Source: Sphingomonas sp. Leaf17
Lineage (GTDB): Bacteria; Pseudomonadota; Alphaproteobacteria; Sphingomonadales; Sphingomonadaceae
DNA: 64,000 bases
NCBI RefSeq assembly: GCF_001421505.1
Contig: NZ_LMKL01000001.1
Location: forward strand, 310,001-374,000
Direction of reading: 5' to 3'
The position numbers and the translations under genes were made by a program. Within the stretch, counting starts at the first letter, position 1. Each line of letters starts with the position of its first letter. Below the pieces are notes generated by a model. The model saw nothing but the letters and a program-made list of their open reading frames with translations. It ran no database searches and was not told the origin of the DNA. Of the stretch, positions 31,428-64,000 are shown in pieces.

Positions 31428-32786
31428 ATGATGGACGAACCGCAAGTCAATCGCCGGGACATACTGACCTCCGCGCTTGCCGCGACGGCTGTGACGATGG
31501 TGCCGCCGGCGATTGCCGAGGCGCATGCGCCGGGTGCCGGGTTGCTTGCTCCGCGGCCTCCGATGGGCTGGAACAGCTGGAACAGTTTCGCGACCACGAT
31601 CACCGAGGCGCAGGCGCGTGAGACGGCCGCGATCATGGCAAGCAAGCTGCTGCCGTTCGGCTACGACATCTTTACCGTCGACATCCAGTGGTACGAGCCG
31701 GAAGCGTCGAGTTACGCCTATAGCGGTAATCCGGTGCCGGCGATGGACGGGTATGGCCGGCTGGTCCCGGCACCAAACCGCTTCCCGTCGAGCGCCGACG
31801 GGTCCGGCTTCACGACGCTGGCCGCCGACGTCCACCGCATGGGCATGAAGTTCGGCATCCACCTGATGCGCGGTATCCCACGGTTGGCGGTGAAGAGGAA
31901 TCTGCCCGTCCTCGGCACGACGTATCGCGCCGGCGATATCGCCGATACGACCAGCATCTGTTCGTGGAATCCCGACATGTACGGCGTCGACATGACGAAG
32001 CCGGGCGCGCAGGCCTATTACGACAGCGTGTTTAGGCTGTATGCCGACTGGGGCGTCGATTTCGTCAAGATGGACGACATGAGCCGCCCCTATGACGCGC
32101 ACGCGCCCGAGATCGAGGGCGCGCACAGGGCGATCGTCAACACCGGTCGCCCGATGATGCTCAGCCTGTCCCCCGGCGAAACGCCGGTGATCCGTGGCGA
32201 TCACGTTCGCCGATATGCGCAGATGTGGCGGATCAGCGATGATTTCTGGGACGAATGGGCGATGCTGGAGGCGCAGTTCACCCGGCTGGAGAACTGGAAC
32301 ACCTGGCGTCGCCCCGGCGCATGGCCCGATGCCGATATGCTGCCGCTGGGCCGGCTGGCACTGGGCCAGCGCGATACGAAGTTCACGCCCGACGAACAGC
32401 GCACGCTGATGACCCTGTGGTCGATCGCCCGCTCGCCGCTCATTATGGGGGGTGACCTGCGCCATCTCGATGCGCCGACGCTGGCGCTGCTGACCAACCG
32501 CGAGGTGCTGGCGGTCAATCAGGCGAGCACCGACAACCGTCCGCATTTCGTGCAGGACGGCACCCGCATCTGGTCCGCCCGGCCGGAGGGGAGCCAGGAC
32601 CGCTACCTTGCGATGTTCAACACCACCGACAAGCCCATGGACGTGACGATCCCCCTGCGCGATCTCGGCAAGTCCGGATCGGTGGCCGTCCGCGACCTGT
32701 GGTCCGGTCGGGCCGTCGGCACCGCCCGCGACCATATCACGCGGATGGTATCGCCGCATGGTGCCGGGCTGTATCGACTGACCTGA
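31428..32786 (+). CDS. Glycoside hydrolase family 27 (alpha-galactosidase-like)
   Basis: 452 residues. The N-terminus has a twin-Arg-like signal (NRRDILTSALAATAVTMVPP), so it is probably periplasmic. GH27 barrel motifs: PPMGWNSWNSF, the nucleophile Asp in VDFVKMDDM and the acid/base region RISDDFWDEW, with GGDLRHLD at the barrel end and a C-terminal beta domain. The residues around the active site (DIQWYEPE instead of DDGW) differ from classical alpha-galactosidases, so another alpha-linked sugar is possible. It stands alone, with no receptor or regulator beside it. Confidence 0.87.
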   Translation: MMDEPQVNRRDILTSALAATAVTMVPPAIAEAHAPGAGLLAPRPPMGWNSWNSFATTITEAQARETAAIMASKLLPFGYDIFTVDIQWYEPEASSYAYSGNPVPAMDGYGRLVPAPNRFPSSADGSGFTTLAADVHRMGMKFGIHLMRGIPRLAVKRNLPVLGTTYRAGDIADTTSICSWNPDMYGVDMTKPGAQAYYDSVFRLYADWGVDFVKMDDMSRPYDAHAPEIEGAHRAIVNTGRPMMLSLSPGETPVIRGDHVRRYAQMWRISDDFWDEWAMLEAQFTRLENWNTWRRPGAWPDADMLPLGRLALGQRDTKFTPDEQRTLMTLWSIARSPLIMGGDLRHLDAPTLALLTNREVLAVNQASTDNRPHFVQDGTRIWSARPEGSQDRYLAMFNTTDKPMDVTIPLRDLGKSGSVAVRDLWSGRAVGTARDHITRMVSPHGAGLYRLT

Positions 32787-56037: not shown

Positions 56038-57090
56038 ATGAGCGACATCACCCCAGACGGTAACCGGCACGAGTCCACCCGACCGCGCACCATCAGCGAC
56101 ATCGCGCGACTGGCGGGTGTCCACGCGGGAACCGTATCGCGCGCGCTTGCGGACAATCCGCTGGTGAATGCCGAGACGCGCGCGCGGATCCAGGCGCTGG
56201 CCGACGAGCATGGATTTCGGCCCAACCAGATGGCCAGCCGCCTTCGCACGCAGAAGACGCATGTCGTCGGGGTCGTCGTTCCACTCGGCCACGAGCGCCG
56301 CCAGCATCTGTCCGACCCGTTCTTCATGACTATCCTCGGTCATCTCGCCGATGCCCTGACTGAGGGCGGCTACGACATCATGCTCTCCCGCGTCATTCCC
56401 GACGCGCACGACTGGCTGGAGCGCATCGTCGATTCCGGCATGCTCGACGGCGTGCTCCTGATCGGCCAGTCGGACCAGTTCGACGCGATCGAACGGGTTG
56501 CGGCGCGCTATCGCCCGCTGGTGGTCTGGGGCGATCATGTCGATGGCCAGCATCACTGCGCGGTCGGTGTCGACAACAGGCTGGGCGGCCTGCTGGCGGG
56601 ACGACGGCTGATCGAGCGGGGCTGTCGGCAACTGGCGTTCTTCGGCGAAATCCGGACGCTGGAACTGGCTCACCGTTACGATGGGCTGATCCAGGCGGCT
56701 CGGGAGGCGGACATCGCCGACCCTGTCCAGTGCGATACCCATCTGGCGTCCGATGTGATGGCAGCGGAGATTTCGGATCACCTTGATCGACTGTCGGGCA
56801 GGATAGACGGCATCGCTGCGGCATCGGACGTCATCGCGATGCGCAGCGTGCGGGTGCTGGCCGATCGCGGCATCGCCGTGCCGGGCGATGTTCCCGTGGT
56901 CGGGTTCGACGACCTGCCGCTTGCCAGCCAGATCATTCCGCGGCTGACGACGATCCGTCAGGATGTCGAACGTGGTGCCGCCGAAATGATTCGCGCGTTG
57001 TTCGCGCGGATGCAGGGGGCGGAGATGCCGGGGGCGGATGCGCCGTCGGTCATCATGACGCCCGAGCTTGTGGTGCGCGATTCAGCCTGA
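56038..57090 (+). CDS. LacI family transcriptional regulator
   Basis: 350 residues. N-terminal HTH with hinge (TISDIARLAGVHAGTVSRAL, NPLVNAETRARIQALADEHG), and a periplasmic-binding-protein-like core (VVGVVVPLGH, VPVVGFDDLPLASQIIPRLT). It probably represses the following carbohydrate genes and releases on binding a sugar. It is first in the locus, 170 bases before the TonB receptor gene, whose leader holds repeated TTGCAATCG motifs. Confidence 0.92.
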   Translation: MSDITPDGNRHESTRPRTISDIARLAGVHAGTVSRALADNPLVNAETRARIQALADEHGFRPNQMASRLRTQKTHVVGVVVPLGHERRQHLSDPFFMTILGHLADALTEGGYDIMLSRVIPDAHDWLERIVDSGMLDGVLLIGQSDQFDAIERVAARYRPLVVWGDHVDGQHHCAVGVDNRLGGLLAGRRLIERGCRQLAFFGEIRTLELAHRYDGLIQAAREADIADPVQCDTHLASDVMAAEISDHLDRLSGRIDGIAAASDVIAMRSVRVLADRGIAVPGDVPVVGFDDLPLASQIIPRLTTIRQDVERGAAEMIRALFARMQGAEMPGADAPSVIMTPELVVRDSA

Positions 57091-57160
57091 ACTCCAGGCA
57101 TCTGTTTTTGCTAGGTTTTATAACCATCGCGAGACCGTATGAATGCACATTGCGCGGCCT

Positions 57161-57202
57161 TTGCAATCGTTTGTTGCAATGGCCTGCAATCGTCTGCATA
57201 GT
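57161..57202 (+). promoter_or_regulatory. Promoter with candidate LacI operators
   Basis: TTGCAA (57174-57179), 17-bp spacer and CATAGT (57197-57202) form a sigma-70-like promoter. TTGCAA occurs twice around a 7-base core (57161-57179), and CTGCAATCGTCTGCA at 57184-57198 repeats the TGCAATCGT element. A repressor bound here would overlap the -35/-10 boxes. Confidence 0.55.
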
Positions 57203-57260
57203 GACACGACAAACAGATAAACAGGCTGTCGATCACGGCGGTTGATTCAGGAGGGGTTCC

Positions 57261-59771
57261 ATGAGGAAGGCATCGTTTTGGCTTGCTGGCGTCACGCTGG
57301 CGGCATTCCAGCCGTTCGTCGCTTCGGCGCAGACCGCACCGGCGCAGGCCACGCCCCAGGCCGATACGGCACCGGGCGACGCCGCCGCCGATCCGGCGAA
57401 TGACCCGAACGATCGCGCCAACGACATCGTCGTCACCGGCACTTCCCGCCCCGAACGCCGCCTGACGACCAGCATCTCGGTCAGCGCGCTGGACGCCACC
57501 CAGATCGCGCGCGCGGCACCACTGGGCAGCGCCGATCTGATCCGCAACGTGCCCGGCCTCCGGTCGGAGGCCTCGGGTGGCGAAGGCAATGCCAACATCG
57601 CCGTGCGCGGCCTGCCCGTTGCCAGCGGCGGCGCCAAGTTCGTCCAGTTCCAGGAGGACGGCCTGCCCGTTCTCAACTTCGGTGACATCGCCTTCGCGAC
57701 CGCCGACGCCTTTGTCCGGCCCGACAACAACGTGCAGCGCGTCGAAGTCGTGCGCGGCGGTTCGGCATCGACGTTCACGAGCAATGCGCCGGGCGCGATC
57801 ATCAACTTCATCAGCAAGACCGGCAAGACCGCGGGCGGCAACGTCGCGCTGACCCGGGGCCTCGATTTCGATCGCACGCGCATCGACGCCGATTACGGCG
57901 CGCCGATCGGCGACGACTGGAACTTTCATATCGGCGGATTCTACCGGATCGGCGACGGTGTGAAGAAGATCGGCTACAACGCCGAGAAGGGTGGCCAGAT
58001 CAAGGCCAACATCACGCGCAATTTCGCCAACGGTTTCCTGCGGATCACCGGCAAGTTTCTCGACGACCGCGCGCCGGCCTATATCCCCGTGCCGATCCGC
58101 AACACCGGCACCAACAGCGATCCCAAGTTCAGCAACCTGCCCGGCTTCGACGCGAGGAAGGATCCGCTCCAGTCGCCGTATTTCCGTTCCGATCTGGCGA
58201 TCGGCGCGAACGGCCAGCGCATCCGCACCGACGTGGCCGACGGCTATCGCACCAAGGCCCGCGCGATCGGTGGCGAGGCGTCGTTTGACCTGGGCGGTGG
58301 CTGGAACATCGACGACAAGTTCAACTATGCCAAGAACTCCGGTGGCTTCACCACGCCCTACGCGGCCAATGTCCAGACCGCGGCGTCGTTCGCATCCTCG
58401 CTGGGCGGTGCCGGTGCGACGCTGCGCTATGCGAACGGCCCCAATGCCGGTCAGACGATCGCCAACCCGGCGACACTCAACGGCAACGGCCTTGCGACCA
58501 ACGCGCTGCTGTTCAACGTGACGCTCGACGATTTCACCAACATCACCAACGTGCTGACGCTGGCCAAGGAAGTCGATGGCGGGTCGCTCGGGTCGGGTTC
58601 GGTAACGCTGGGCTATTTCAAGTCGCGCCAGGCGGTCAAGATGGACTGGCACTGGAACAGCTATCTGCAGGAAGTCAGCGGCAACAGGCCCGCCCTGCTC
58701 GACGTCTTCAACGCCGCCGGACAGCCGGTCACCCAGAACGGCCTGATCGCGTATGGCGAACCGGTGTTCGGCAATTGCTGCCAGCGATTCTATGACGTCG
58801 ACTACACCATCGACGCGCCCTATCTCGCCGCGACGTGGAAGACCGGCCGGCTGAACATCGACGGCAGCGTGCGCTGGAACAGCTCGAAGGCGGATGGTAT
58901 CTACGCCACCAACACCGGGCTGAGCACGATCGACGTCAATCAGGACGGCGTCATCCAGAACGTCGAGCGTGCGGTGCCGGTGGTCAATCTCGCGGCGGCC
59001 CAGTCGGTGAACTACCGCAAGTCCTACTTCACCTGGTCGATCGGTGCCAATTACGAGATCCAGACCGATCTGGCGATGTTTGCCCGCGTCAGCCGCGGCG
59101 CGCGCTTCAACGCGGATCGCGTGCTGTTCGGCGGCGGCGTCCGCACCGATGGCAGCATCGCCGACGAGATCGCGGTGAACTTCGTCAACCAGCAGGAAGC
59201 CGGCGTGAAGTATCGCGCGGGTCCGTTCTTTGCCAACGTCACCGCATTCCGCGCGACGACGGCCGAGACGAACGAGATCGTCATCCCGCGCCAGATGCTC
59301 ATCAGCAACAAGTACCGGTCCTACGGACTCGAGCTTGAAGCCGGGCTGGATTACGACGTGTTCCACCTGACCGGCGGCGCGACCTATACGCATGCGCGGA
59401 TCACCGAAAGCGAAGTGACGCCGGCCTTCAACGGCAACACGCCGTACCGTCAGGCGGCGCTGATCTTCCAGGCATCGCCGTCGATCGAGCTGGATCGTTT
59501 CTCGATCGGGGCGAATATCATCGGCACGACCTCGTCCTATGCGTCGGACCTCAACCAGCTGAAGATCCCGGGCTATGTCCTGACCGGCGCGTTCGCGTCG
59601 TTCGCGGTCACCCCGGCCCTGCGCCTGTCGGTCAACGCGCAGAACATCTTCAACACGCTGGCGATCACCGAACTCGGCCAGTCGACCGACACGCTGCCGA
59701 CCAGCGGCATCAACACCGCACGCGCCTTTCCGGGCCGCAACATCAGTGCGACGATCGCCCTTCGGTTCTGA
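57261..59771 (+). CDS. TonB-dependent receptor, carbohydrate type
   Basis: Outer-membrane receptor of 836 residues: signal peptide (MRKASFWLAGVTLAAFQPFVASA), TonB box region near DIVVTGTS, a plug at about 70-180 (IRNVPGLRSEASGG, VEVVRGGSASTFTSNAPGAI), a large barrel, and terminal Phe (IALRF). Position after LacI and before a GH27 and a GH13 gene points to oligosaccharide uptake, as SuxB does for sucrose in Xanthomonas. GGAGG precedes the ATG. Confidence 0.88.
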   Translation: MRKASFWLAGVTLAAFQPFVASAQTAPAQATPQADTAPGDAAADPANDPNDRANDIVVTGTSRPERRLTTSISVSALDATQIARAAPLGSADLIRNVPGLRSEASGGEGNANIAVRGLPVASGGAKFVQFQEDGLPVLNFGDIAFATADAFVRPDNNVQRVEVVRGGSASTFTSNAPGAIINFISKTGKTAGGNVALTRGLDFDRTRIDADYGAPIGDDWNFHIGGFYRIGDGVKKIGYNAEKGGQIKANITRNFANGFLRITGKFLDDRAPAYIPVPIRNTGTNSDPKFSNLPGFDARKDPLQSPYFRSDLAIGANGQRIRTDVADGYRTKARAIGGEASFDLGGGWNIDDKFNYAKNSGGFTTPYAANVQTAASFASSLGGAGATLRYANGPNAGQTIANPATLNGNGLATNALLFNVTLDDFTNITNVLTLAKEVDGGSLGSGSVTLGYFKSRQAVKMDWHWNSYLQEVSGNRPALLDVFNAAGQPVTQNGLIAYGEPVFGNCCQRFYDVDYTIDAPYLAATWKTGRLNIDGSVRWNSSKADGIYATNTGLSTIDVNQDGVIQNVERAVPVVNLAAAQSVNYRKSYFTWSIGANYEIQTDLAMFARVSRGARFNADRVLFGGGVRTDGSIADEIAVNFVNQQEAGVKYRAGPFFANVTAFRATTAETNEIVIPRQMLISNKYRSYGLELEAGLDYDVFHLTGGATYTHARITESEVTPAFNGNTPYRQAALIFQASPSIELDRFSIGANIIGTTSSYASDLNQLKIPGYVLTGAFASFAVTPALRLSVNAQNIFNTLAITELGQSTDTLPTSGINTARAFPGRNISATIALRF

Positions 59772-59852
59772 CGACGGCGGCAGGTCACGGCGGCGGGTCG
59801 CGGCATCCACGAGCGGGTGCTGCGACCGGCCGATCAACAGGGGATGACAGGG

Positions 59853-61457
59853 ATGCGTATGCGTAAGGTGCTTGGCGCGATCGGTATCGCGGCGGTCGGC
59901 GGACTGATCGGCGTCACAGCGCCGATGGGCATGTCGCCTGCCGTGGCGCAGGCGGCGGCAACGCCACAGCCGCTGGCAAGCCTCGACGGCAGTTGGCTGG
60001 TCGTTCCCCGCCGGACGCCGGGGTCGGTCGCCATCGGCGGCATCCCCCGGTCGTTCGTCCTGTCGAGCGATGGCAGGACGGTGACGGGCGAGTTCCGCTT
60101 CAATGGCTGGGTCTATCCGATCGCGAACATGGTCGCGCGGCCCGACGGCTTCGCCTTCGACCTGACCGGCAAGCCGCCCTTCGTGAAGATGCGCGCAAAA
60201 CTGTCTGCGGGCGGCCGCTTCCTCGATGTCTGGATCGGCGACGAGGTGGTCGGCGTTGCCCCCTTCCTCGCGCGGCGCGTGACGCCCGCCGAACTGGCGA
60301 CGGTCGAACGCGATGCACCGCGCCCCGACAACATGACCAAGCTCCCCCTGCCCGCGCTGCACGACGTCGGCGTGAAGAACCTGGCACCGACCCCGCCGAT
60401 GGGCTGGAACAGCTGGAACGTCTTCCGCGAGGCGGTCGACGACGCCGCGGTGCGCGCGATGGCCGACCGGCTCGTTGCCACCGGTCTGCGCGACGCCGGG
60501 TATCGCTATGTCACGATCGACGACGGCTGGCAGGGCAAGCGCGATGCGGCGGGCGTGCTGCATCCCAACGCCAAGTTCCCCGACATGAAGGGACTGGTCG
60601 ACTATATCCATGCACGCGGCCTGAAGGTCGGCATCTACAGTTCGCCGGGACCGGTCACCTGCACCGGGTACATCGGCAGCCACGGCCATGAGAAACAGGA
60701 TGCGAAGACCTATGCCGCATGGGGCGTCGACCTGCTGAAATACGACTGGTGCAGCGCGTCCAACATCTACGACACCAAGACGGAGATGCAGGCGCAGTAC
60801 CAGAAGATGGGCGACGCGCTTGCCGAAACCGGTCGGGCGATCGTCTACAGCCTGTGTCAGTACGGCCTGTTCGACGTCGGCAGCTGGGGCAACCGCGTCG
60901 GCGGCCATTTGTGGCGGACCGGCGGTGACAGCATCGAAGGCGATCTGTGGCACGCGATCGATTTCCGTTTCGATCATAACGGCAACGCGGCGCATGCTGG
61001 GCCGAGCGCCTGGAACGACGCCGACATGATGCTGGTCGGCATCGACGGGCTGACGCCCGAGGAATATCGGACGCACTACACATTGTGGACGATGGCCGCA
61101 TCGCCGATCATCCTCGGCAACGACCTGCGCACGATGACGCCTGCCACCAAGGCGCTGGTCGCCAATCGCGAGGTCATCGCGATCGACCAGGATCCGCTCG
61201 GCATTCAGGGCCGGCGCGTCTCGCAGGACGGCAAGACCGAGATCTGGACCAAGCGTCTCGCCGACGGATCGACCGCGGTCGCCCTGTTCAACCGGGGCGA
61301 CGCCCCGGCCGCGATGACGGTGCGCTGGGGCGGCGCGGTCGGCGTCGCGCAGCCGAAAATGCTCCGCGACGTATGGCGCGGCGCCGACCTGCCGGTCCGG
61401 CCGAGCTACACGACCACCGTCCCGCGTCACGGCGCCATCCTTCTGCGGGCGTTCTGA
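59853..61457 (+). CDS. GH27 alpha-galactosidase
   Basis: About 534 residues. Signal peptide (IGIAAVGGLIGVTAPMGMSPAVA), an N-terminal beta domain of about 130 residues, and a GH27 barrel with PPMGWNSWNVF, TIDDGWQG, nucleophile Asp in DLLKYDWCSASN, and acid/base region RTGGDSIEGDLW with SAWNDADMM. It removes terminal alpha-galactose, for example from raffinose or melibiose, in the periplasm. The start is uncertain between ATGs at 59844, 59853 and 59859. The gap to the next gene is 5 bases. Confidence 0.92.
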   Translation: MRMRKVLGAIGIAAVGGLIGVTAPMGMSPAVAQAAATPQPLASLDGSWLVVPRRTPGSVAIGGIPRSFVLSSDGRTVTGEFRFNGWVYPIANMVARPDGFAFDLTGKPPFVKMRAKLSAGGRFLDVWIGDEVVGVAPFLARRVTPAELATVERDAPRPDNMTKLPLPALHDVGVKNLAPTPPMGWNSWNVFREAVDDAAVRAMADRLVATGLRDAGYRYVTIDDGWQGKRDAAGVLHPNAKFPDMKGLVDYIHARGLKVGIYSSPGPVTCTGYIGSHGHEKQDAKTYAAWGVDLLKYDWCSASNIYDTKTEMQAQYQKMGDALAETGRAIVYSLCQYGLFDVGSWGNRVGGHLWRTGGDSIEGDLWHAIDFRFDHNGNAAHAGPSAWNDADMMLVGIDGLTPEEYRTHYTLWTMAASPIILGNDLRTMTPATKALVANREVIAIDQDPLGIQGRRVSQDGKTEIWTKRLADGSTAVALFNRGDAPAAMTVRWGGAVGVAQPKMLRDVWRGADLPVRPSYTTTVPRHGAILLRAF

Positions 61458-61462
61458 CCGTC

Positions 61463-63268
61463 ATGGCGCACGACCATTCCGCCCACCCGGATTTCGACGA
61501 TCGCCTGAACCGCCACGGCGCGACGCTGCGCCGGCAGATCGCGCGATTGTACGGCGCGGATCACGATCTCGACGCGCTGTGGTCGCGGATCGAGGCGATG
61601 TTGCGCGAGCGGATGGCGACACGGCCGGCGGTGATGCAGGGATTGGACAACGCCCGGATCGCCGACCCGGACTGGTTCGTCGCGCCCGACATGATCGGCT
61701 ATTCGACCTATGTCGATCGGTTCGCCGATACCGTGACCGGCCTGACCGCGCATGTCGATCATCTCGAAACGCTGGGCGTCCGCTATCTGCATCTGCTCGC
61801 GCTGCTCAAGGCCCGCGCCGGCGACAGCGACGGCGGCTTCGCGGTGGCGGACTATCTCAGCGTCGAACCCGCGCTCGGCACGATGGCCGAGGTCGAGGCG
61901 CTGTGCGACAGGTTGCGCGCGAGCCGCATCAGCCTGTGTGTCGACCTGGCGCTCAACCATACCGCGGACGATCACGTCTGGGCGCTGGCCGCCAGGGCGG
62001 GCGATCCGCACTATCGCGATTTCTACATCGTGGTCGACGAGGCCGAGGCGGCAGCGCGCGAGGCCCTGTTGCCACAGGTGTTCCCGACGACCGCGCCGGG
62101 CAACTTCACCGTCGTGCCCGCGATGGGCGGCAGCGTATGGACGACCTTCTACCCGTTCCAGTGGGATCTGAACTGGGCGAATCCAGAGGTCATGTTGGCG
62201 ATGATCGACACGATGCTGCGGCTCGCCAATCACGGATTCGAGGCGTTCCGCCTCGATTCCACCGCGTTCCTCTGGAAACAGGCGGGGACCGATTGTCGCA
62301 ACCTGCCTCAGGCGCACCATATCGTGCGGGCGCTCCGGGCCGCGCTCGATATCGTCGCGCCGGCGACGCTGCTGAAGGCGGAGGCGATTGTGCCGACGGC
62401 GTTCGTGCCGCCCTATTTCGGGGCGGATGACGGCGACGGGTTCGAACCCGAATGTCATCTGGTCTACAATAATTCGCTGATGGTGGCGGGCTGGGTCGCG
62501 CTGGCCGAACAGTCGGCGGCGCTGCCCGCGGCGATCGTCGCTGCCAGCGGCGGTCTGCCGCGCGGTGCCAACTGGCTGACCTATGCACGGTGTCACGACG
62601 ATATCGGCTGGGGTGCGGTGCTCGGCGATCTGCGCGGAATCGACGCCGCCCCCGAAGACCGGCTGACGGTTGCCGCCCGCTTCCTCGAAGGAGCCGGCGA
62701 CAGCTGGGCGCGTGGCGAGCCGTTCCAGTCGGATGGGTCGGTGCTTCACGGGACCAACGGCACGTTCGCCTCGCTCGCCGGCCTGGAAATCGCCGGCACC
62801 GAGGCCGAGCGTGAGGACGCGCTGCGCCGGATCATGCTGCTGAATGCCCTTGCGATCGCCAGCGGTGGCCTTGCAACGACCTATATGGGCGACGAGGCCG
62901 GCATGACGAACGACCAGAGCTACCGCACCGACCCCGACAAGGCGCATGAAGGTCGCTGGGTGCACCGCCCGGCGATGGACTGGTCGTCGCTGGATGGCAC
63001 CGATGCCGCCCGGATATCCGGCGATCTCGCCCGTTTGCGCGCGGCGAGGATCGCCAGCGGCGGTGCGGGGTCGCCGACATGTCTCGCATCGGACGCGGCC
63101 TTTGCGGCACTGCTGGGGATCGGCTGCGGCAAGGACCGCGTGTTCCTCAACTTCTCGGCCCGGCCCGTGCCGGTCGCCGGCGGCGGGGTCGACCGCCTGA
63201 CCGGGCAGCCTGCCCCCGCAATCCTCGAACCATGGCAGGTCATCTGGTTGTCGGGAGCAGACGCATGA
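61463..63268 (+). CDS. Amylosucrase-family GH13_4 enzyme (sucrose-active)
   Basis: 601 residues, no signal peptide, so cytoplasmic. Residues line up with amylosucrase: YVDRFADTVTGLTAHVDHLE, DLALNHT, nucleophile Asp in EAFRLDSTAFLWKQ, acid/base Glu in LLKAEAIV, and Asp in CHDDIGW; GDEAGMTNDQSYRTDPDKAH closes the site. It splits sucrose and moves glucose to glucan or water (SuxA-like). The polymer-elongation loop cannot be judged here, so hydrolase or transferase is open. Start 61463. ATGA overlap with the transporter gene. Confidence 0.88.
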   Translation: MAHDHSAHPDFDDRLNRHGATLRRQIARLYGADHDLDALWSRIEAMLRERMATRPAVMQGLDNARIADPDWFVAPDMIGYSTYVDRFADTVTGLTAHVDHLETLGVRYLHLLALLKARAGDSDGGFAVADYLSVEPALGTMAEVEALCDRLRASRISLCVDLALNHTADDHVWALAARAGDPHYRDFYIVVDEAEAAAREALLPQVFPTTAPGNFTVVPAMGGSVWTTFYPFQWDLNWANPEVMLAMIDTMLRLANHGFEAFRLDSTAFLWKQAGTDCRNLPQAHHIVRALRAALDIVAPATLLKAEAIVPTAFVPPYFGADDGDGFEPECHLVYNNSLMVAGWVALAEQSAALPAAIVAASGGLPRGANWLTYARCHDDIGWGAVLGDLRGIDAAPEDRLTVAARFLEGAGDSWARGEPFQSDGSVLHGTNGTFASLAGLEIAGTEAEREDALRRIMLLNALAIASGGLATTYMGDEAGMTNDQSYRTDPDKAHEGRWVHRPAMDWSSLDGTDAARISGDLARLRAARIASGGAGSPTCLASDAAFAALLGIGCGKDRVFLNFSARPVPVAGGGVDRLTGQPAPAILEPWQVIWLSGADA

Positions 63269-64000
63269 AACCCCGGCTGTCACTGGCGCGCATCATCGAG
63301 ATGAACCTGGGGTTCCTCGGGTTGCAATTCTCGTTCGGGCTGCAACAGGCGAACATGGCGCCGATCTACGGCTATCTCGGCGCTGACGAGGCATCGCTGC
63401 CGCTGCTGTGGCTGGCGGGACCGATGACCGGGCTGCTCGTCCAGCCGCTGATCGGCGCGTTGTCCGACAAGACCACCAGTCGCCTCGGCCGGCGGACGCC
63501 GTATTTCCTGGTCGGTGCTGTGCTGTGCAGCCTGTGCCTGCTGGCGATGCCGTACAGCCCGACGCTGTGGGTTGCGGCCAGCCTGTTGTGGATCCTCGAC
63601 GCCGCCAACAACGTCACCATGGAACCCTATCGCGCCTATGTCGGCGACCGGCTGTCGGAGGATCAGCGACCGACCGGGTTCCTGACGCAGGCCGCCTTTA
63701 CCGGGCTTGCCCAGACGCTGTCGTACCTGTCACCGTCGCTGCTCGTTTGGTGGGGCATGGACAAGGACGCGGTGGACGCGAACGGCATTCCCGACATCAC
63801 CCGGATCGCGTTCGTCGTCGGGGCGATCCTGTCGCTGTCGACGATCCTGTGGTCGGTCCTGCGCGTGCCCGAACTGCCGCTGACGCCCGAAGAACGCGCG
63901 GCAATGAACGCCGACACGCTGACTCTTGGCGGAGCATTGCGCGACGTCGTCGCGGCGATCCGCGACATGCCCAAGCCGATGCGGCAGCTTGGGGTCGCGA
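63265..64000 (+). CDS. MFS sugar transporter (SLC45/SuxC-like), 3' end outside window
   Basis: The first 245 residues with six visible helices: NMLGFLGLQFSFGLQQANMA-type helix 1, GPMTGLLVQPLIGALSDKTT loop, LGRRTPYFLVGAVLCSLCLL, and LSYLSPSLLVWWGM later. It resembles the SLC45/GPH-like sucrose-proton symporters used in the Xanthomonas sux locus. It overlaps the GH13 gene by four bases. The gene runs past the window edge. Confidence 0.85.
   Translation, partial: MKPRLSLARIIEMNLGFLGLQFSFGLQQANMAPIYGYLGADEASLPLLWLAGPMTGLLVQPLIGALSDKTTSRLGRRTPYFLVGAVLCSLCLLAMPYSPTLWVAASLLWILDAANNVTMEPYRAYVGDRLSEDQRPTGFLTQAAFTGLAQTLSYLSPSLLVWWGMDKDAVDANGIPDITRIAFVVGAILSLSTILWSVLRVPELPLTPEERAAMNADTLTLGGALRDVVAAIRDMPKPMRQLGVA

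Follow-up and report, generated by a model that had tools for sequence, protein, structure and literature searches.

A four-gene sux locus, comprising suxR, suxC, suxA and suxB, has been shown experimentally to serve sucrose use in Xanthomonas campestris, and that report notes that the locus varies to some degree between bacteria (PMC1790865). Raffinose-family sugars, described as widespread in plants in a study on lactobacilli (PMC3458588), are already well known to be used by means of an alpha-galactosidase and a sucrose enzyme, as documented in reports on lactobacilli and Bacteroides thetaiotaomicron (PMC3458588, PMC11501099); for the latter, the authors call the outer-membrane transporter for raffinose unknown (PMC11501099). 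Here, we analyzed a locus of Sphingomonas sp. Leaf17 in which a gene for a GH27 alpha-galactosidase-family enzyme is situated between the TonB-dependent receptor and the GH13_4 enzyme of a sux-type locus. The window, that is, the whole stretch of 64,000 nucleotides under study, corresponds to bases 310001 to 374000 of contig C1 in a genome of 3.2 Mb in 11 contigs. Gene order, families, motifs, predicted fold, uniqueness of an operator-like site and the pattern of conservation and loss are reported below as observed. Together, they point to a sux-type locus that has probably been extended to raffinose-family or similar galactosyl-sucroses by a periplasmic trimming enzyme.

Organization of the locus

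Five genes, all on the + strand, encode a LacI-family regulator, a TonB receptor, the GH27 enzyme, the GH13_4 enzyme and an MFS symporter in this order, and a sixth gene follows beyond the window. An earlier annotation made from the letters alone (the sequence-only reading) had proposed the five-gene order, and all five genes were found in place on one strand. The features are as follows.

56038 to 57090, + strand: LacI-family regulator, 350 amino acids; PF00356 and PF13377 above cut-off
57162 to 57180, + strand: operator-like site TGCAATCGTTTGTTGCAAT, 80 bases upstream of the receptor ATG
57261 to 59771, + strand: TonB-dependent outer-membrane receptor, 836 amino acids; PF00593 and PF07715
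59853 to 61457, + strand: GH27 alpha-galactosidase-family enzyme, 534 amino acids; PF16499 above cut-off
61463 to 63268, + strand: GH13_4 sucrose hydrolase/amylosucrase-type enzyme, 601 amino acids; matches to PDB sequences
63265 to 64000 and on to window-equivalent 64569, + strand: MFS sugar symporter, 434 amino acids in total; PF07690/PF13347 above cut-off
64631 to 65581, outside the window: alpha/beta hydrolase (BD-FAE/Abhydrolase_3), 316 amino acids; sixth gene, 61 bases after the MFS gene

The GH27 stop codon (61455 to 61457) is followed after a gap of 5 bases by the GH13_4 ATG at 61463, and the GH13_4 and MFS genes overlap by ATGA at 63265 to 63268, in agreement with the close junctions described earlier. 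Order and junctions would fit a single transcription unit of alpha-galactosidase, sucrose enzyme and uptake genes. Scanning for promoters and terminators gave results no better than shuffled sequences (1 promoter-like site versus 1.0 expected; 2 terminator-like sites versus 3.4). The start of the GH27 gene is uncertain (GTG at 59817, ATG at 59844 or ATG at 59853); the protein collection entry (P0001) is the 534-amino-acid form starting at 59853. A GH27 protein of S. faeni in the same collection (P0002) shares 85% identity with it. No curated NCBIfam cut-off was reached by any of the four proteins scanned.

The joint presence of a LacI-type regulator, TonB receptor, GH13_4 and MFS symporter is that of a sux-type carbohydrate utilization locus containing a TonB-dependent receptor (CUT locus). 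Of the proposed match to the Xanthomonas sux locus, the gene set stood, and the gene order did not: in the loci used for comparison (designated by L numbers throughout), the MFS gene of Xanthomonas (L041 and L044) and of Pseudoxanthomonas (L049) lies on the opposite strand between the LacI and receptor genes, which rules out the exact Xanthomonas order. Apart from GH27, the window order matches plain loci of sphingomonads and Oxalobacteraceae.

Predicted enzymes and transporter

Assignment of the third gene product to GH27 was borne out by its PF16499 match, its fold and an invariant pair of aspartates. Among PDB sequences, the protein is closest to two plant alpha-galactosidases, 6F4C and 1UAS, and an AlphaFold model built on a 50-row alignment (mean predicted local distance difference test [pLDDT], 91.3) matched the fold of rice alpha-galactosidase 1UAS best (template modeling score [TM-score], 0.93 by target length). 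D298 (KYDW) and D359 (GGDS), which we take to be the nucleophile and the acid/base known for GH27, are invariant in 50/50 rows of the alignment. The modeled GH27 fold with both catalytic aspartates would make the protein an alpha-galactosidase of this family. Its N terminus is signal-peptide-like, signal peptides being judged from hydropathy and an AxA-type motif. About 140 extra residues precede the catalytic domain; in this N-terminal part (window 59964 to 60332), a confidently predicted, mostly beta domain of more than 100 residues is common to relatives, and Pfam matched no family to it.

Two more GH27 genes were seen in the genome. One is a stand-alone gene in the window (31428 to 32786, + strand; 452 amino acids; start resembling a twin-arginine translocation [Tat] signal), ∼28 kb upstream, and the other is located on contig C6 (L102, 9687 to 11015, − strand), with no obvious TonB receptor or glycosidase gene alongside.

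For the fourth gene product, we presume the subfamily label GH13_4, as given by the sequence-only reading. Its characterization as an amylosucrase-type GH13 enzyme held, since amylosucrase 9R8I scored highest among PDB sequences (521 bits), closely followed by 3CZE, the sucrose hydrolase of Xanthomonas (518 bits), and the motifs RLDS, KAEAI and CHDD are identical to those of 3CZE. Best match and catalytic D, E and D would place the protein among the amylosucrases and sucrose hydrolases. By hydropathy it has no hydrophobic start, and no signal peptide was seen. That the top single match is named an amylosucrase would suit an enzyme building glucan from sucrose, in which case the locus would serve a storage or surface polymer more than catabolism. 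We consider this very improbable, given the nearly equal match to 3CZE, the uptake genes in the operon and the fructokinase in the operon of several relatives.

Among PDB sequences, the MFS protein matched plant SUC1, a sucrose transporter, best (8BB6; E = 1.2e-19). The hydrolase encoded downstream belongs to BD-FAE/Abhydrolase_3, has mostly esterases as solved relatives and begins with a signal-peptide-like stretch, as judged by hydropathy.

Distribution of the locus in sphingomonads and other bacteria

A search for the same gene order in other sphingomonads, as suggested earlier, revealed all six genes in that order in a second species of the genus, Sphingomonas sp. UBA978 (L017, also L117), at 75 to 90% identity and with the same 5-base junction between GH27 and GH13_4. 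This recurrence, together with traces of the order in L118, L119 and L121, rules out that the genes are chance neighbors. When named genomes were scanned with a GH13_4 alignment, a GH27 match was present in 2 of the best 80 loci, L017 and L037. The latter, from a metagenome-assembled genome of an uncultured member of the Caulobacterales, contains a different GH27 (45% identity, 413 amino acids) adjoining the MFS gene and divergent from the genes for LacI, GH13_4 and fructokinase. Because L037 pairs another GH27 with GH13_4, MFS, LacI and fructokinase, it supports our reading of the window locus.

At thresholds of E <= 1e-60 for GH13_4 and E <= 1e-40 for GH27, GH13_4 was found in 52 and GH27 in 85 of the 295 genomes of the genus set. 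GH13_4 (E <= 1e-60) occurred in 5 of 397 genomes of the family, and a class-level search found GH13_4 in 5/385 genomes and GH27 in 1/385 (the Leaf17 genome itself), with only two genomes of this genus among those seen at the head of the class-level matches. The neighborhoods of all 52 GH13_4 genes of the genus were read with a simple gene finder and tblastn, which small or unusual genes may escape. The slot between receptor and GH13_4 genes was occupied in eight loci: by an intact GH27 in two (the window and L117), by an Abhydrolase_3 gene in three (L124, L125 and L129, the L125 receptor gene being split over two frames), by a carboxylesterase gene in two (L127 and L128) and by a GH97 gene in one (L137, with a receptor only 30% identical and LacI on the opposite strand). 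GH13_4 directly followed the receptor in 32 loci: L120, L121 and 30 loci whose receptor is of the plain type. The draft genome containing L118 is rated 88% complete; in this locus, GH27 is reduced to its last third and the receptor to scraps. A window-type receptor in the opposite direction was present in two further loci (L148 and L158), where it is divergent, together with LacI, from GH13_4 and MFS, and no trimming enzyme was seen. No nearby same-strand receptor was found in the neighborhoods of nine GH13_4 genes; in two of these loci, L126 and L130, a TonB-receptor-like frame is present farther away on the opposite strand. An internal stop interrupts the GH13_4 gene of genome G868, one of the 52. 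L124 also carries a GH27 (46% identity) ∼13 kb from GH13_4, with other genes intervening.

Beyond the family, but within the class, L103 and L104 show a receptor-GH13_4-fructokinase row preceded by two lipoprotein-like genes. Of the pair in L103, the locus that was scanned, one gene encodes a cytochrome c-like domain and no Pfam family matched the second.

Apparent mosaic origin and gene decay

In a receptor tree of 29 rows, the window clade comprises the window, L017, L119, L120 and L121 (98/98) and joins the receptors of the esterase-type loci L016, L124, L125 and L129 (100/100), away from plain sphingomonad receptors; a program warning indicated that some deeper long-branch joins in this tree may be false. 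Since its receptor falls outside the plain group, we class the locus as a sux variant and not as a plain sux locus. The GH13_4 tree (37 rows) has a window clade of the window, L017, L118, L120 and L121 (93/91), which sits among the enzymes of plain sphingomonad loci (100/99), at a great distance from those of L016, L124, L125 and L129. The MFS tree agrees with the GH13_4 tree (100/98), and the LacI tree separates the window clade (100/100) from both the plain and the esterase-type groups. Because of this discordance between the receptor tree and the GH13_4 and MFS trees, the locus looks like a mosaic, in which a receptor of esterase-type descent is combined with a hydrolase and a symporter of plain descent.

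L017 pairs with L121 as its sister in the receptor, GH13_4 and MFS trees (100/100, 100/100 and 100/98, respectively); the LacI tree does not show this pairing (weak fork, 82/37). Between its receptor and GH13_4 genes, L121 contains a 5′ piece of GH27 scoring 48 (reached by 0 of 500 simple letter shuffles) and a 3′ piece scoring 32 (reached by 1 of 500). As L121 keeps short pieces of both ends of GH27 and its sister L017 the whole gene, GH27 was evidently lost in L121, and its recent insertion into an empty sux locus was rejected for this case. L120, which lacks both GH27 and the esterase gene, showed no clear remnant in the gap: the GH27 end scores were 23 (147/500 shuffles as high) and 29 (9/500). 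In L119 (genome G902), the operator-like site, receptor, GH27 and esterase are intact, and GH13_4 and MFS are present only as fragments (L119, 11280 to 12330); the genus search (E <= 1e-60) found no other GH13_4 in that genome.

Such decay bears on a different explanation, in which one operon has two jobs: sucrose use and the separate scavenging of galactose by GH27 from any alpha-galactoside (melibiose, galactomannan ends and galactolipids being candidates), without galactosyl-sucrose as a joint substrate. Loss of GH27 in L121 and its truncation in L118, with GH13_4 and MFS kept, as well as the reverse situation in L119, would be expected from such a division, and two other GH27 genes are present in the genome, neither of them in a sux-type locus. 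The position of GH27 between receptor and hydrolase argues against it, as do the 5-base junction with GH13_4 in both the window and L017, the occurrence of other trimming-type enzymes in the same slot of other sux-type loci and the pairing of another GH27 with sux genes in L037. On balance, we judge two separate jobs to be unlikely, though by no means negligible.

Trimming-type enzymes in the receptor-GH13_4 slot

The window locus is one case of a wider slot pattern, since esterase-family or GH97 genes occupy the same position in other loci. Within the genus, a trimming-type enzyme was present in the slot of 5/9 loci with a window-type receptor versus 0/30 loci with a plain receptor (Fisher p = 0.0002, which overstates the case because the loci are related by descent).

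Besides L124, L125 and L129, an Abhydrolase_3 gene was seen between receptor and GH13_4 in L016, from a different genus of the same family (assigned by Pfam for the copies in L016 and L124). The L124 copy, on which the signal-peptide check was run, bears a predicted signal peptide. These four are candidate acyl-sucrose loci; acylated sucroses also occur in plants. L015, L127 and L128 are GH13_4 loci with a different receptor type and several esterase families (Abhydrolase_3 and PF00756; carboxylesterase in L127 and L128; tannase in L015). The esterase genes of L015, which is from the same family, lie around the slot but not within it. In L137 (2329 to 10879), consecutive genes encode a receptor, a GH97 enzyme of the alpha-glucosidase type, GH13_4, a fructokinase and an MFS protein, and the locus possibly serves glucosyl-sucroses. 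That its GH97 is an alpha-galactosidase was rejected, as it scored up to 581 bits against GH97 alpha-glucosidase entries versus 181 to 183 against GH97 alpha-galactosidases.

An esterase-family gene follows the MFS gene, or its remnant, in the window, L017, L121 and L119. Esterase-like matches after MFS were also found on the other strand in eight plain loci (L139, L146, L155, L157, L162, L163, L164 and L166), and carboxylesterase-like matches in the same arrangement in L137 and L148; in these ten loci they were not counted as locus members. The gene after MFS would be the key enzyme, and GH27 accessory, if the substrate were a more decorated sucrose, either acylated or acylated and galactosylated. 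Grouping of the window receptor with the receptors of loci that have a signal-peptide-bearing Abhydrolase_3 in the slot would suit such a substrate, as would the MFS-esterase pairs in L015, L067 and L128. However, L120 has no esterase gene, and acyl sucrose is a guess because the solved relatives of the esterase are various esterases; we therefore consider this explanation improbable.

A conserved operator-like site

The LacI regulator of the window is 80 to 81% identical to those of L017, L120 and L121 and 78% identical over the available part of L118. Comparison of the gaps between the LacI and receptor genes in the window and its closest relatives yielded the conserved site TGCAAWCGWTTGTTGCAAT at 57162 to 57180. 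With up to 3 mismatches allowed, this was the single match in the window (0.01 expected) and in the entire 3.2-Mb genome. It is exact upstream of the receptor in L017, L119 and L121 and has one mismatch in L120; among 132 loci, the exact site occurred in five, namely, L017, L119 and L121 and, in addition, L006, which is the window, and L117, which duplicates the record of L017. Conservation in these relatives is descriptive only, since the pattern was derived from their sequences, which does not affect its uniqueness in the genome. We infer that the LacI protein of the locus binds this site. The site is retained in L119, where no LacI gene was seen within the 17 kb read around the locus.

Galactose and fructose genes elsewhere in the genome

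Five ROK matches were found in the genome, two of which share ∼50% identity with the fructokinase encoded in the sux locus L013. A search for galactokinase (PF10509) found none in the genome and was positive in 10/14 control genomes. The gene for the De Ley-Doudoroff kinase (DGOK) was found once, outside the locus. By eye, the sequences near it (L113, 41 to 12887) include a KDPGal-aldolase-like gene, an SSS symporter, GH53-like and GH2-like genes and a TonB receptor, and L113 is likely a galactan locus. The absence of a galactokinase match together with the presence and neighbors of DGOK would fit the De Ley-Doudoroff route for galactose.

Discussion

From the above observations, we infer substrate, transport, regulation and compartment as follows. 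The TonB receptor would bring the oligosaccharide into the periplasm, where GH27, predicted to be secreted, would remove galactose; the SUC1-like MFS symporter would import the freed sucrose, and the GH13_4 enzyme, predicted to be cytoplasmic, would split it into glucose and fructose. Galactose may then be handled by the De Ley-Doudoroff route, and fructose by one of the two fructokinase-like ROK kinases, both encoded elsewhere. The esterase-family enzyme encoded after MFS might remove acyl groups from the same sugars, and LacI would hold the operon off at its single operator-like site until sugar binds.

Several points weigh against this scheme. An intact GH27 beside GH13_4 is rare, the GH27 fold matches include arabinopyranosidases and an isomaltodextranase, and the family also holds enzymes for other sugars. 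The GH13_4 enzyme could be a transferase and not a hydrolase, its sequence being compatible with either. No fructokinase or galactose-use genes were found in the locus, and several relatives carry a fructokinase. Moreover, GH27 is separable from the sucrose core: L120 and L121 have the core without it, and in L119 the receptor, GH27 and esterase genes stayed intact, GH13_4 and MFS decayed, and LacI was not seen in the region read. Of the raffinose reading put forward earlier, the part resting on sequence, fold and comparison thus stood, but a strict tie of GH27 to the sucrose core did not, as shown by L119, L120 and L121.

The slot pattern extends these findings beyond the GH27 locus, and all enzyme activities in it are predictions. 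It may be that sphingomonad sux loci are a modular platform whose slot enzyme is secreted, fits the receptor and has been exchanged over evolutionary time, so that it predicts which sucrose derivative the receptor imports. In this scheme, GH27 would indicate galactosyl-sucroses, GH97 glucosyl-sucroses and esterases acyl-sucroses, and the window receptor would be an importer of the raffinose type. We advance this tentatively, at somewhat less than even confidence. If true, the slot would offer an easy way to predict the sucrose derivative that a given plant-associated bacterium is able to import, and the window receptor would be a candidate for the TonB-dependent import of raffinose-type sugars. 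Nature provides loci that have GH27, lack it or are losing it, which makes the idea open to direct comparison of strains.

The sequence-only reading was aware of no earlier account of this combination, and no such description was found in the literature searched, most subscription papers lying outside that search. The raf operon of enterobacterial plasmids performs the same list of jobs with a LacI regulator, an alpha-galactosidase, an MFS permease, a sucrose hydrolase and an outer-membrane channel. Its enzymes are of GH36 and GH32, the channel is a porin and cleavage is cytoplasmic; the window, by comparison, encodes GH27 and GH13 enzymes. In a further report, the alpha-galactosidases discussed belong to a Rhizobium and not to that paper's Sphingomonas (PMC9123166). 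Lactobacilli, according to the work cited above, likewise use an alpha-galactosidase and then a sucrose enzyme on the leftover sucrose, but import raffinose itself and employ MelA of GH36 and the sucrose phosphorylase ScrP/GtfA (PMC3458588). B. thetaiotaomicron resembles the window in that its alpha-galactosidase for raffinose use (BT1871) is periplasmic in the authors' model, whereas its genes are in two loci and its sucrases are GH32 enzymes acting in the periplasm (PMC11501099). The Xanthomonas sux locus shares the LacI-type repressor, the TonB receptor and amylosucrase-type enzyme as an operon, and the MFS inner-membrane transporter; as described in the report, it consists of four genes without an alpha-galactosidase or esterase (PMC1790865), and the window receptor is of another group. 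Plain Sphingomonas sux loci (L018, S. aurantiaca; L024, S. citricola) lack GH27, have receptors only 44 to 47% identical to that of the window and in some cases include a ROK fructokinase, but they share with the window LacI, receptor, GH13_4 (72 to 75%) and MFS (76 to 80%) in the same order.

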